Below, in pieces: positions 6,939 to 35,542 of a DNA stretch of 39,748 nucleotides (the stretch's first letter is position 1; each line of letters starts with the position of its first letter). The position numbers and the translations under genes are program-made. Source of the stretch: Promethearchaeati archaeon (GTDB taxonomy: Archaea > Asgardarchaeota > Heimdallarchaeia > JABLTI01); NCBI GenBank assembly GCA_013166835.1, contig JABLTI010000036.1, positions 1-39,748 on the forward strand, in the 5' to 3' direction. The notes under the pieces are model-generated. The model saw only the letters and a list, made by a program, of their open reading frames with translations, was not told the origin of the DNA and made no database searches.

Positions 6939-7015
6939 GGGCCGATAGATCAGCTTGGAAGATCGTCTGATTTGCATTCAGAAGGCCGCGGATTCAAATT
7001 CCGCTCGGTCCACCA
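6939..7015 (+). tRNA. tRNA-Ala (anticodon TGC)
   Basis: Full cloverleaf without intron. The 7-bp acceptor pairs GGGCCGA with TCGGTCC and contains a G3-U70 pair, the alanine identity element. D stem GATC/GATC; anticodon stem TCTGA/TCAGA with loop TTTGCAT, so the anticodon is TGC at 6973-6975; T stem GCGGA/TCCGC with loop TTCAAAT. The discriminator is A and CCA is encoded at 7013-7015. The mature tRNA without CCA is 74 bases. Confidence 0.97.
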
Positions 7016-19430: not shown

Positions 19431-19538
19431 TGGCGGGCGTGGCGCGATTCGAATTCGCGGAACGAGGAACACATCCTAAGTTCTCACGCGGCCACCTAGT
19501 TAAAAGCCAGGTGCTCTACCTAGCTGAGCTACACGCCC
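19431..19538 (-). tRNA. tRNA-Lys (anticodon TTT) with 31-nt intron in the T arm
   Basis: On the minus strand: acceptor GGGCGTG/CACGCCC, discriminator G, CCA encoded (19431-19433); D stem GCTC/GAGC; anticodon stem CCTGG/CTAGG with loop CTTTTAA, so anticodon TTT (19502-19504); variable loop TGGCC. The T arm only closes if 31 bases (19454-19484) are removed: then GCGTG pairs with CGCGC around the loop TTCGAAT. Mature length is 74 bases without CCA. There is no intron at the usual 37/38 site. A TTTAAAAAG-type box about 30 bases upstream is the likely promoter. Confidence 0.93.
19454..19484 (-). other. tRNA intron at position 53/54 of tRNA-Lys
   Basis: 31 bases. On the minus strand the exon CGCG pairs with CGCG near the intron 3' end to make a 4-bp central helix. 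A 3-base bulge TGA lies on the 5' side and AAT on the 3' side, and the intron closes with GAAC/GTTC and AGGA/TCCT stems. Cutting after the second base of each bulge gives exactly the mature T arm. This is the archaeal bulge-helix-bulge splice motif, in its relaxed form because the outer exon helix is poor. Confidence 0.85.
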
Positions 19539-19689: not shown

Positions 19690-21357
19690 ATGAGTGACTC
19701 TGATGAACGTGAACTTGAGCTTCTCCTTCAGCAATTGAAGGAAAATACAGATATTGATCTTCGCAGTCATGCTGCTCAACAACTTGGTTTAAAGAAACAT
19801 AAATCTGATATTGTTGTTCCAGCATTAATTGAAGCTCTTAATGATGATAATTGGTTTGTACGTATTGAAGTAGCCACTGCTCTTGGTAAAATTGGTCGTG
19901 CTGCTGCTGTAGCCATCGGACCTTTGAAAGACACTATGAATGAACCGCGTAACAGACCAAAAAGAGGTATTTTCTATGAAGTGATTCAAACTTTGGAGAT
20001 CGCTAAAAGTGCTGAACCCGAAGTTGAACCAAGTGTGGTTGTTGAAGAGAAAAAGGAAGAAATTACTTTTGAGGAGAAGGTAGAAGAAGAAGTTGCTATT
20101 GTTGAGGAAAAACCCATAGAACCCGTTATAGAAGCTTCTGAAGAAGTTATTGAGGATGTTGTAGAGGAACCTCTTGTAAAAGAGAAAGTTGAATTAATTA
20201 CTGAGGAAATTGTCGAGGAATCAAAAATAGTTGATGAAGTAGTAGTGGAAGACAAACCTGAGGAAACTGTTGCAGAAGTTGTAGAAGAAATTGCTGAAGA
20301 GATTGCAGAGGAAGTCATAGAACTCGAACCAGAGGAAGACGAAGAAACAGAAATCACTGAGGAATACACTGTCGGTGAAGACATCACTGAAATTGTTAAA
20401 GATGTTGCTGAAGACATTACTGAGGATACTACAGATGACGAGATTATAGAGGAAGCTATCGAAGAGATCGCTGAAGAAGTTTTAGAAGATGTTCTCGAAG
20501 AAGAAGTTGGCGACACAGTCGATCATAACATCATTGATGATATTGCTGAGGAAATTACCGAAGAGGTTCTTGAAACTGAAGAAGAGGAAGTAGAAGAACC
20601 TGTTGAAACCATACAAGCTCCAGTGATTGAAGCTCCCGAAATAGAACTGGAAGAAGAAAAAAAAACGACTGAAGACGTAACAGATGCTGTTCCACTTGAT
20701 GAAGTTTTAGAGTTTGAAGAAGATAAAGAAAAAGTTGAGGAACAACCATCAACATTAGAACCCCCAACAGTGGAAGACATTAAAACAGTTAGAAGGTCTA
20801 AAGCTCTAATAAAAATCGTTATTGTTGGTGATGCAGCTGTAGGTAAGACTGCTTTACGAAAGAAATACTGTGATGTTTCTTATAGCGAAGAATACAAATA
20901 TGTTCTCGGAGCAGATTTTGCTACCAAACATTTCTCAAAGAATAATGAAGATTTTTCGTTACAGGTTTGGGATATTGCCGCTAAGGAGCGGTTCGATAAA
21001 AGTAAAGAACTTTTCTTCAAAAGCATTTTTGGAGCTTTATTAGTTTTTGATGTAACAAATAGAGAATCATTCAACAACATTCGATATTGGATTGAAGAAC
21101 TACGAAAAATCGAGAGTAAAGAACTTGCATTAGTTATCGTTGGAAATAAAACCGATTTACGCACTGATAAAGAATCTACTTATATTACCCGTGAAGAAGG
21201 GCAAGAACTTGCTTCAAAGCTGTCAGAAGAAATAGGTTTTGATGTTTCTTATGTTGAAGCTAGTGCTATTAATGGCACTGGTGTAGAGGTAGCTTTCAGA
21301 ATACTTGAAGAAAGAACAACAGATCAATTCTTTGTCGATGAGAGAAAAATGGAGTAA
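19690..21357 (+). CDS. HEAT repeat / acidic linker / Ras-like GTPase fusion, altered switch residues
   Basis: 555 residues. Residues 8-105 hold two or three HEAT-like repeats (SHAAQQLGLKKHKSDIVVPA; VRIEVATALGKIGRAAA). Residues 110-365 are a highly acidic, low-complexity Glu/Val/Ile stretch, probably extended or coiled. Residues 370-540 are a Ras/Rab-like G domain: P-loop GDAAVGKT (380-387), G4 NKTD (486-489), G5 SA (525-526). Switch I has V405 where Rab proteins have the Mg-binding Thr (VLGADF for TIGxDF). G3 reads WDIAAKERF, so the Gly and Gln of WDTAGQE are Ala431 and Lys432. Nucleotide binding looks kept; GTP sensing and hydrolysis look impaired. GGAGAT precedes the ATG. Confidence 0.85.
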   Translation: MSDSDERELELLLQQLKENTDIDLRSHAAQQLGLKKHKSDIVVPALIEALNDDNWFVRIEVATALGKIGRAAAVAIGPLKDTMNEPRNRPKRGIFYEVIQTLEIAKSAEPEVEPSVVVEEKKEEITFEEKVEEEVAIVEEKPIEPVIEASEEVIEDVVEEPLVKEKVELITEEIVEESKIVDEVVVEDKPEETVAEVVEEIAEEIAEEVIELEPEEDEETEITEEYTVGEDITEIVKDVAEDITEDTTDDEIIEEAIEEIAEEVLEDVLEEEVGDTVDHNIIDDIAEEITEEVLETEEEEVEEPVETIQAPVIEAPEIELEEEKKTTEDVTDAVPLDEVLEFEEDKEKVEEQPSTLEPPTVEDIKTVRRSKALIKIVIVGDAAVGKTALRKKYCDVSYSEEYKYVLGADFATKHFSKNNEDFSLQVWDIAAKERFDKSKELFFKSIFGALLVFDVTNRESFNNIRYWIEELRKIESKELALVIVGNKTDLRTDKESTYITREEGQELASKLSEEIGFDVSYVEASAINGTGVEVAFRILEERTTDQFFVDERKME

Positions 21358-21655: not shown

Positions 21656-21781
21656 AGACTAATGATTAGATTTTCTATTTTTAAAAATTCTTGACTAAAA
21701 TTAAGCGAAAATTGCTTCCTTAGTAACAACTTGTGACCTCTTCTTGAGTCTTATTTTTGAGTCTCTAAAAAGTGAATCCGC

Positions 21782-21789
21782 TTTATATA
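21782..21789 (+). promoter_or_regulatory. TATA box of micropeptide gene A
   Basis: TTTATATA, 57 bases before the ATG at 21839, would place transcription start near 21812, giving a leader of about 27 bases that contains the GGAG at 21825-21828. An AGGAGGT at 21796-21802 lies upstream of that expected start and so is probably not used for this peptide. Confidence 0.55.
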
Positions 21790-21838
21790 TGATTTAGGAG
21801 GTAGTATAATCAAGAACAAAACTCGGAGAAGAAAAAAA

Positions 21839-21928
21839 ATGAACAGAACCAAACAAAAAATCGAACAAAAAATAAGAAAGGATTACGAACAAACTAGAAT
21901 TAAATTCGCGCTCATCACTGGCGCATGA
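21839..21928 (+). CDS. Micropeptide A (29 residues), ends in RIKFALITGA
   Basis: Too short for ordinary gene calling. ATG at 21839 with GGAG ten bases upstream, stop TGA. The first 20 residues are polar and rich in Lys, Arg, Gln and Glu (an amphipathic helix, net basic); the last ten are RIKFALITGA. The neighbouring micropeptide B has the same C-terminus with one conservative change. In those ten codons the two genes differ by AAA/AGA (Lys/Arg) and by silent GCG/GCA, ATC/ATA and GGC/GGT, and then TGA/TAA. That pattern is expected for translated, selected sequence. No signal peptide. Function unknown: an exported signal, leader or membrane-active peptide are all possible. Confidence 0.6.
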   Translation: MNRTKQKIEQKIRKDYEQTRIKFALITGA

Positions 21929-21930
21929 AT

Positions 21931-21949
21931 AGCTGGTCAGAAAGACCCA
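21931..21949 (+). other. Small hairpin between micropeptide genes
   Basis: CTGGTC pairs with GACC and CAG around loop AGAAA with one bulged C, starting three bases after the stop of micropeptide A. There is no T-run directly after it, so it is not a simple terminator; it could protect the 3' end of transcript A. Confidence 0.35.
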
Positions 21950-21956
21950 GTCTGCT

Positions 21957-21964
21957 CTTATAAA
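21957..21964 (+). promoter_or_regulatory. TATA box of micropeptide gene B
   Basis: CTTATAAA, 58 bases before the TTG of micropeptide B, almost the same spacing as for gene A. It suggests the whole expression unit, not just the coding part, was duplicated. Confidence 0.5.
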
Positions 21965-22014
21965 GTGACCAAACATAAAGAATAACAAGAACAAAAAAAA
22001 TTGGTGAAAAAAAA

Positions 22015-22101
22015 TTGAACAAAAAAGAACAAATCAAAAATCAAGTAAAGAAAGATAAAGATTTAGCTAGAATTAGATTCGCACTCATAACTGGTGCATA
22101 A
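22015..22101 (+). CDS. Micropeptide B (28 residues), ends in RIRFALITGA
   Basis: TTG start with GGTGA seven bases upstream, stop TAA. It aligns to micropeptide A with one gap: about half of the positions are identical and most others are Lys/Arg, Asp/Glu, Asn/Gln or Ile/Val swaps. The C-terminal RI-R-FALITGA is the strongest block. The DNA around the start also aligns (GGTG then A-run then TTGAAC against GGAGAAG then A-run then ATGAAC). A strong hairpin terminator follows at 22132. The peptide lies beside the convergent adenosine-specific kinase gene. No known family recognised. Confidence 0.58.
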   Translation: MNKKEQIKNQVKKDKDLARIRFALITGA

Positions 22102-22131: not shown

Positions 22132-22174
22132 GTTCAAGAGTCAACTCTTGAACACTTACGTTCTGGCTTTTTTT
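22132..22174 (+). terminator. Hairpin and T-run after the micropeptide genes
   Basis: Nine-base perfect stem GTTCAAGAG / CTCTTGAAC with loop TCAA (22132-22153), followed 14 bases later by seven T (22168-22174). It would end the micropeptide transcript. Being symmetric, the stem could also act on the minus-strand kinase transcript that ends at 22193. Confidence 0.65.
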
Positions 22175-22192: not shown

Positions 22193-22687
22193 TTATGGAA
22201 TTTTGTATCCTATTTTCTCTGTTGCTTCTCTTCGTTCTATCTTCTGCTCAGAAGTCTCAATTTTGTCTACTAATGTTCCATCTATTACTCCTATTACTGC
22301 TTTTCCTAATTCTGTTTCTGCTATTATTACTTCCATTATATTCGCGGAAGCCACAAAAATAGTGCAAACTGCAGGATGATTCTTAATATGAGGTAGAACA
22401 TTAATTGGAAATGCATTTTCCATCATTATTACAAATACATGACTCGCCCCTATAGCTAAAGCATTCTCTGCTGCTAATTTTTCTAGCTCCGGATCATTTG
22501 CGGTTACTCGAGTTAGTTTCGGAACAGCTTCATTCATTGCAACCGCACATTTGATTCCCGGTACTGTTGTGAGCATTGTCATGAACAAATCATCTGTTGT
22601 AAATATCGAGAAATTTCCTTGCCCTATTATTATTTGATAATTTGTTTCTGGGTTCTTTATTTTCACACTCTTTGTTTTTACTGTCAT
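22193..22687 (-). CDS. Adenosine-specific kinase family (DUF355)
   Basis: About 164 residues from the ATG at 22687, which has GGAG six bases before it; an in-frame GTG at 22699 would add four residues. Nearly the whole protein follows the DUF355/COG1839 pattern: VKIKNPETNYQIIIGQGNF, a helix then TTVPGIKCAVAMNEA, ENALAIGASHVFVIMM, NAFPINVLPHIKNHPAV, CTIFVASANIMEVIIAETE, and GKAVIGVIDG. The archaeal founding member has reported adenosine-specific kinase structure and activity; the cellular role is open. The length is typical. It stands alone, facing the micropeptide cassette. Confidence 0.9.
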   Translation of the reverse strand: MTVKTKSVKIKNPETNYQIIIGQGNFSIFTTDDLFMTMLTTVPGIKCAVAMNEAVPKLTRVTANDPELEKLAAENALAIGASHVFVIMMENAFPINVLPHIKNHPAVCTIFVASANIMEVIIAETELGKAVIGVIDGTLVDKIETSEQKIERREATEKIGYKIP

Positions 22688-35435: not shown

Positions 35436-35542
35436 AGGCCTGTGGCGCAGTCTGGATAGCGCGTTCGGCTTCGGTTAGAGGTCGGACATGATCTTTAGGA
35501 GACACCGAAAGGTCGGCGGTTCGAATCCGTTCAGGCCTGCCA
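35436..35542 (+). tRNA. tRNA-Arg (anticodon TCG) with canonical intron
   Basis: Acceptor AGGCCTG/CAGGCCT, discriminator G, CCA encoded at 35540-35542. D stem GCGC/GCGC; anticodon stem TTCGG/CCGAA; loop CTTCGG + A once the intron is removed, so anticodon TCG at 35471-35473. T stem GGCGG/CCGTT with loop TTCGAAT. Mature length is 75 bases without CCA. Confidence 0.95.
35475..35503 (+). other. tRNA intron at position 37/38 of tRNA-Arg
   Basis: 29 bases. CTTC in the exon pairs with GGAG in the intron as the 4-bp central helix; bulges GGT (5') and ACA (3') flank it; the intron closes with TAGAG/CTTTA. Cutting after the second base of each bulge gives the expected loop. This is a full bulge-helix-bulge motif at the canonical site. 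Confidence 0.9.

Follow-up and report, generated by a model that had tools for sequence, protein, structure and literature searches.

Tandem micropeptide genes of a Heimdallarchaeota genus, their candidate operators and an RNA stem reaching into the last reading frame

Can two reading frames of fewer than thirty residues be genes, and if so, what would such genes be for? The question is raised by a pair of frames in the window, the name used below for the entire 39,748-nucleotide stretch of DNA analysed. Micropeptide 1 (A type; 21839..21928, + strand) runs from ATG to TGA and encodes the 29-residue MNRTKQKIEQKIRKDYEQTRIKFALITGA, while micropeptide 2 (B type; 22015..22101, +) runs from TTG to TAA and encodes the 28-residue MNKKEQIKNQVKKDKDLARIRFALITGA. 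Both peptides end in RI[K/R]FALITGA. The original prediction had given these coordinates and the 86 bases of spacing, which are confirmed from the sequence, as are the three synonymous changes and the single Lys/Arg change that it counted within the last ten codons. From these features it had proposed two selected paralogous coding genes of a size that escapes annotation, without any described family, each coding for a short basic helix with a fixed hydrophobic tail as the functional part. Proteins of fewer than 50 residues are nearly absent from the annotation of uncultured archaea; the present case concerns Heimdallarchaeota, which stand near the origin of eukaryotes, and a multi-copy family for whose coding nature the sequence evidence is strong.

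Coding evidence and range of the family

Over 21 orthologous pairs, which come from few lineages and are not fully independent, the coding frame has a pN/pS of 0.23 (binomial p=3.9e-15), and the same pairs read in the two other frames give 0.89 and 1.25. The synonymous rate in the coding frame is four times the non-synonymous one, the differences are distributed 32/26/68 over codon positions 1/2/3, and purifying selection is seen in the coding frame only. For the window orthologues, compared between G000 and G006, dN/dS is 0.05 for peptide 1 and 0.21 for peptide 2. Signals for translation point the same way, with a Shine-Dalgarno sequence before 53 of 60 family members versus 21% of comparable short ORFs at the same loci. 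In the window, a GGAG (21825..21828, +) lies about 10 bases upstream of the ATG of peptide 1, and a Shine-Dalgarno-like GGTG (22003..22006, +), kept in orthologues, lies 8 bases upstream of the TTG of peptide 2, a start codon that is credible because orthologues use ATG there. On this comparative evidence the coding reading stands, and with it the predicted pair of selected paralogous genes, whose frames are kept in orthologues.

Could the frames nevertheless be open by chance, within a structured RNA that yields no peptide? Such an RNA is hinted at by a possible GCNC-TCATNACTG-GNGC hairpin (GCGC/GCAC in the two window copies), in which two of the three silent changes also make up a compensatory G-C to A-T pair, and by a long-range stem that covaries (see below). 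The local hairpin was however rejected as the cause of conservation because orthologues lose the fold and retain the peptide: in G006 copy 1 an identical tail is written GCT TTA ATT ACT GGA GCC, which destroys the hairpin, and the fold is likewise destroyed in G004/G007, the peptide being kept or conservatively changed. Broken frames with a preserved fold had been named as the outcome that would speak against coding, and the opposite is seen, since orthologues keep the frames and lose the local fold. An Rfam scan of the region at E up to 5 returned nothing, and the long stem is real but, at about 9-16 bp, leaves the coding signal, with its frame-specific synonymous excess, unexplained. We consider a structured RNA that is open in frame by chance highly improbable.

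Barely credible is the idea that the peptides are remnants of the starts of short-chain dehydrogenase (SDR) genes. ALITGA is the first-strand motif of these enzymes, and the genome's only other near-identical 20-mers with the tail are SDR starts (..GKVALITGASGGIG). Yet the N-terminal parts are unlike, no SDR sequence lies 3' of the stops, and the TGxxxGIG continuation is absent, Thr-Gly-Ala being followed at once by the stop in the two copies as in their orthologues. Purifying selection extends over the whole short frame, and the SDR-fragment reading was rejected on the family alignment, in which most members are without the motif (for instance FALFTGR, SLLSGC and YLLMTGR) and none runs on into an SDR. 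As a separate observation, a conserved block GTGTCCTTCCCGAACCGGACT...GAGTCCTGAGCATCAA, found at L006 (about 1170-1250, - strand) and L007 (about 1735-1812), precedes two SDR genes by some 110 nt; it has no Rfam match and may be an undescribed structured RNA.

How far does the family reach? A profile made from 30 peptides found 2-15 copies in each of nine same-genus genomes, with matches to E=3.5e-15 per genome (E 4.2e-14 for peptide 1 and 3.5e-13 for peptide 2), and almost nothing in 219 other genomes of the phylum, where there were three weak matches only. With a wider profile, 68 matches reached E<1e-4, every one of them in nine genomes of a single Heimdallarchaeota genus, and 50 other genomes of the class had no match below E 0.004, the restriction to one genus being relative to these nine, 50 and 219 genomes. 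Blastn with the 421-bp region retrieved orthologous tandem pairs and shorter paralogous loci, again in the same genus. Further copies, whose absence was to count against the prediction, thus exist in all nine genomes, at about 2-16 per genome; these numbers are lower bounds because all genomes are MAGs, with a completeness of 64-92% in the genus. Nearly all matches sit in short frames, about 29-55 codons from stop to stop, and are therefore free-standing micropeptides, mostly of 27-34 residues (~28 being typical) with the consensus KKxxIKxQIKKDxExxRxxxALxxGx. The only candidate relative outside the genus is a short ORF ending in INYRFNINR, the one at G045:C66 (L088) resembling that at G000:C175 (L097) (..NIRREIEKAQIE..INYRFNINR), in two families of the class. 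Decayed copies were also observed, one at G007:C106 (L213) with start and stop lost and the Arg changed, the other at G002:C258 (L076) with an internal stop.

The window ORFs fall within the length range of the family, match its profile and carry its near-invariant L25 and G28. They have no relative in Pfam, NCBIfam, PHROGs, PADLOC or PDB; the best match of any member, phrog_15772 at E 0.0011 in a search of 38 members against 38880 models, was taken as chance. The open-access papers searched describe no Asgard family of this kind, in agreement with the predicted novelty, which equally holds against Pfam, NCBIfam and solved structures. We are highly confident that the two tiny genes are real and that they represent an undescribed, genus-specific micropeptide family.

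Less is left of the fixed tail. FALITGA is conserved in this pair, in the G006 pair and in copy 1 of G003, but not in the rest of the family, where the tails vary (IAGA, IVGA, INGV, LSGC, MTGR, FTGR, VYGR) and, from locus to locus, close with A, R, C, V, I, Q, K, S or H. Conservation across the alignment is 90% or higher at L25 and G28 only. The tail as the functional part is unsupported, with a pN/pS of ~0.29 in the first part of the peptide and ~0.17 in the last ten codons, and no observation favours the cleaved signal, membrane-active peptide or degron-like tail that the prediction had suggested. The helical body fares better, AlphaFold2 predicting a helix over residues 2-27 of a 33-residue family member (mean pLDDT 86). 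The peptides are rich in lysine (Lys plus Arg ~31%, Trp 0.1%), with a median net charge of +6 over about 28 residues and 5-8 hydrophobic residues at the C-terminus, and their sequences contain no signal-peptide-like, export-type or transmembrane-length hydrophobic run. An amphipathic helix was considered and dropped: the hydrophobic moment is no better than that of shuffled sequences (mean z 0.09), which is why no amphipathic face is claimed.

Operon arrangements, operator-like boxes and regulators

Micropeptide genes recur in four arrangements across the loci of the genus. In the first (i), seen in the window and next to a Gar1-like gene, an A-B tandem has no co-directional gene shortly downstream. 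A lone A-type peptide stands immediately ahead of a bactofilin gene (PF04519) in the second (ii), and ahead of an ArsR-like coiled-coil gene in the third (iii). In the fourth (iv), a winged-helix regulator of about 210 residues is encoded divergently from an operon with one, two or three micropeptides. A tree built on 29 usable columns, from which the branching order within groups is not recoverable, sets first and leader-position peptides apart from last and winged-helix-linked ones (8 label changes versus 25.8 when shuffled; support 95/89 for the group of B plus winged-helix-linked peptides). The comparison of loci shows A (first) and B (last) peptides as two old subfamilies, their order kept at several loci, and the window pair as one operon. 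Given such varied surroundings (loci with GTPase, Gar1, bactofilin, ArsR-type and other genes), the family may have several functions.

The window operon is flanked on one side by a gene (19690..21357, +; Pfam HEAT_2, Ras) in which HEAT repeats are joined to a Ras-like GTPase via a long acidic linker, and on the other by a convergent gene for an adenosine-specific kinase (22193..22687, -; PF04008, E 7.5e-54). A similar HEAT-Ras gene flanks the loci of G003, G004, G005, G007 and G008, that is, most of the genus. The TATA box TTTATATAT (21782..21790, +) has the same position in same-genus loci. Between the two frames are a small spacer hairpin, GGTC-AGAAA-GACC (21935..21947, +), a putative element suggested by sequence and MFE fold, and a possible second TATA-like sequence, TTATAAAG (21958..21965, +). 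The latter was rejected as a general feature because some orthologue spacers, of about 25 nt in G007/G008, leave no room for it. Elsewhere in the window, Rfam alone reports two tRNA genes (35436-35539, +, and 19434-19538, -) of about 104 nt, probably intron-bearing, and ARAGORN reports only a tRNA-Ala at 6939.

Upstream of the promoter, same-genus comparison reveals a 56-bp operator-like box (21723..21778, +) made of an imperfect palindrome GTAACAACTTGTGAC, CTC, two TTGAGTCT repeats and GTGAATC. Its general form, GTCACA-N-TTGTGAC-CTC-N3-TTGAGTCT-(13-bp repeat)-GTGAATC, lies directly 5' of the TATA box and is rigid in length, with few exceptions to 43 or 56 bp among the many same-genus loci that it heads; the tandem pairs that have a box all carry the 56-bp form. 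A strict version, GTCAC..GTGACCTC..GTGAATY, occurs at 25 sites in 9 genomes, and at none in the reversed control. The genes that follow are micropeptides, bactofilins (PF04519) and deoxyhypusine synthase (PF01916), the last with another short ORF ahead of it. We regard the box as new, and as a candidate operator shared with bactofilin and deoxyhypusine-synthase loci. It is also seen before bactofilin-like genes without a micropeptide (L032, L047, L050, L052, L104, L153, L156, L157) and before other ORFs of 28-33 residues (MNGKININNVKNQVRKEIQ..., MINKITVRKQRKDFRKEIRV..., MNKQIKIRQQMKKELKPISFH...) at L042, L044, L014, L141, L144, L152 and L155, in most of which a deoxyhypusine-synthase-like gene then follows.

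The sister operons of arrangement (iv) have a palindrome of their own, TTCTCA-N-TGAGAA-TATATA. Of its 20 distinct sites, 19 fall at such operons, and the reversed control has none. Every winged-helix gene with a score of 290 bits or more, 19 in all, is paired with a divergent micropeptide operon, and it is probably this regulator that binds the TTCTCA/TGAGAA palindrome. Its family weakly matches the annotated transcription regulator PH1932 (profile, E 0.0057); the one member scanned gave no Pfam family at E 0.01. This association of micropeptide operons, divergent winged-helix regulators and second palindrome likewise appears to be new. No HTH gene adjoins the window locus itself.

Winged-helix genes of other genera were rejected as micropeptide partners, most of those at 18 loci facing ordinary genes, with few short ORFs nearby, all doubtful. 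At four such loci (L240, L241, L242 and L244), the related regulators face a divergent gene of about 310 residues, without a Pfam match, across a palindrome of the TTCTCA/TGAGAA kind. Because these members face ordinary genes, the regulator has no need of the peptide, and because they keep a similar palindrome, palindrome and regulator appear coupled and the micropeptides new in the genus. With a regulator family that is class-wide and peptides found in one genus only, the case bears on the birth of new genes.

A covarying stem reaching into the last reading frame

Shared operators and the pairing with regulators at sister loci were missing from the original prediction, as was a third element, a terminator stem embedded in the ORF. 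At 15 loci, a segment that precedes a T6-T8 tract, itself usually followed by ATGTAC, is complementary to the K-[AT]-R-[MI] codons in the last peptide's frame. In the window, the 5' arm of this long-range stem (22065..22073, +) lies inside the codons of peptide 2 (AGCTAGAAT), and the 3' arm (GTTCTGGCT; 22160..22168, +), identified by covariation over 15 units, abuts the presumed terminator U-tract (T7; 22168..22174, +) and ATGTAC. Between them, sequence and MFE fold indicate an inner hairpin, TTCAAGAG-TCAA-CTCTTGAA (22133..22152, +), which is comparable in orthologues. Over 15 pairs and 15 units, 90.2% of the cells are paired, versus 36-56% in shifted registers; the rows of the alignment are related and shuffles therefore give no probability. 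At the wobble base of the Ala codon, the column reads A-U seven times, C-G four times, U-A twice and U-G once, with one mismatch, and the pairing is credible because three Watson-Crick types at a single base pair, across paralogous loci, are hard to obtain otherwise. The 3' signature TTCTNGCTTTTTTTATGTA is found only at micropeptide loci, bar one site with one mismatch, and searching for it led to one further, decayed micropeptide copy. The embedded stem closes many of the operons that have nothing co-directional behind them; it was not seen in the copies ahead of a co-directional gene.

We read the stem as a putative terminator that takes its 5' arm from the last ORF, an arrangement that would be useful where the next gene is convergent; it might also be a translation-sensitive attenuator. 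Either way, a covarying stem formed by the KARM codons and the segment before the U-tract seems to be a new find, and offers a clear case in which the end of a frame under selection also carries a conserved RNA stem.

Possible roles and known systems

What, then, would the peptides do? The explanation that we find somewhat probable as a whole is that of a micropeptide operon family whose products are cationic, helical, protein-binding effectors under dedicated regulators. The peptides would be intracellular, mainly helical small proteins, their synthesis being switched by dedicated transcription factors, with the adjacent winged-helix regulator as the likely switch at the sister loci. Only tentatively do we suggest that they act as effector or feedback ligands, in preference to secreted toxins or leader peptides; the partner might be the regulator itself or the products of the same regulon, which the helix and its hydrophobic [FM]-x-L-[IL]-x-G tail would contact. 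That the palindromes occur almost only at peptide operons suggests that the peptides close a feedback loop. The idea is weaker for the window, where there is no neighbouring regulator and the box is common with bactofilins, and since no HTH gene stands beside that locus, the regulator-ligand part rests on the sister loci. A form of peptide signalling, in which paralogous regulators have their own palindromes and the micropeptides feed back or pass between cells, the window operon being a branch under a second operator that also controls bactofilins, seems rather unlikely.

Three other roles deserve weighing against that of protein-binding effectors. If the frames were leader peptides or uORFs, their translation would sense some state and control a downstream gene or terminator, the product itself being inert. 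Several copies do lie 6-35 nt ahead of a co-directional gene (at bactofilin, ArsR-coiled-coil and other loci), conservation includes the tail adjoining the stop, and the last ORF contains one arm of a terminator. But the stem is not found in precisely those leader-position copies, up to three such frames stand in succession, and selection extends over the whole peptide, beyond the residues near the stop. Moreover, the window, Gar1 and most winged-helix loci have no close co-directional gene, the next one being usually convergent, as is the adenosine kinase gene of the window. We hold this role to be unlikely. The charge and the Lys plus Arg content given above would also suit helices that bind nucleic acid or the ribosome, as tiny basic ribosomal proteins do, some copies being near Gar1 and the same box heading deoxyhypusine synthase loci. 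Ribosomal protein eL41, a very basic single helix of about 25 residues, resembles the family in this respect; to our knowledge, however, it is neither multi-copy nor genus-restricted and has no such hydrophobic tail. Confinement to one genus argues against a core translation role, the conserved hydrophobic tail is atypical of such proteins and the neighbouring genes are mixed, so that this role too has a rather low probability.

Tandem related cationic leaderless peptides, encoded in operons with operator-like sites and on mRNAs whose 3' end takes part in base pairing, also recall antimicrobials or toxins of the leaderless multi-peptide kind, similar to bacteriocins or type I toxins and silenced by dedicated repressors. 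The peptides themselves fit poorly, as there is almost no Trp, no amphipathicity above shuffles and, apart from the 5-8 C-terminal hydrophobic residues, no transmembrane-length stretch. No immunity or transporter gene is found among the nearest neighbours, the peptides have no PADLOC match, and the stem occludes codons, not the Shine-Dalgarno sequence. An antimicrobial or toxic action is decidedly unlikely. Whichever role applies, a family that has expanded inside a single genus, and to which a regulator family and two different operator-like boxes are linked, yields a list of frames for Ribo-seq and peptidomics and a testable regulator-operator-peptide circuit.

Among known systems, Rgg/SHP of streptococci (PMC3679016, PMC13361665) is similar to the winged-helix loci in that the peptide genes adjoin and diverge from the gene of a DNA-binding regulator, with several paralogous copies per genome and a hydrophobic C-terminus. 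It may differ in its regulator, which is of the RRNPP kind (HTH plus TPR), the one described here being weakly PH1932-like, with no Pfam match for the one member scanned. Our peptides are moreover highly cationic, without an export-type hydrophobic segment, and come as one to three different peptides per operon, with no transporter or protease seen; and the window locus is without an adjacent regulator, which 19 of 19 sister loci have. Leaderless bacteriocins such as garvicin KS and aureocin A70 (PMC6131525) share the tandem related cationic leaderless ORFs within one operon, but not the profile, since the present family is neither Trp-rich nor amphipathic. Nor are immunity or transport genes among its nearest neighbours; its operators and terminator stem are of another kind and its host is an archaeon. 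The type I toxin AapA1 of Helicobacter pylori (PMC8309996; PMC6733600) is alike in being a short basic peptide with several chromosomal copies, and in the involvement of its transcript in mRNA structure. Contrary to this toxin, the micropeptides have by composition and alignment no membrane-spanning hydrophobic core, and the pairing hits codons ~17-21 instead of the translation start, antisense RNA being a feature of the toxin system. Finally, the small proteins of Methanosarcina mazei detected by Ribo-seq and peptidomics (PMC11456600) and the zinc-finger micro-proteins of Haloferax (PMC10716476) are likewise very short ORFs overlooked by annotation. Unlike these, the family described here has no Cys pairs and no visible sequence relation to them, and it is multi-copy, paralogous and genus-specific, with operator-like boxes shared between its loci.
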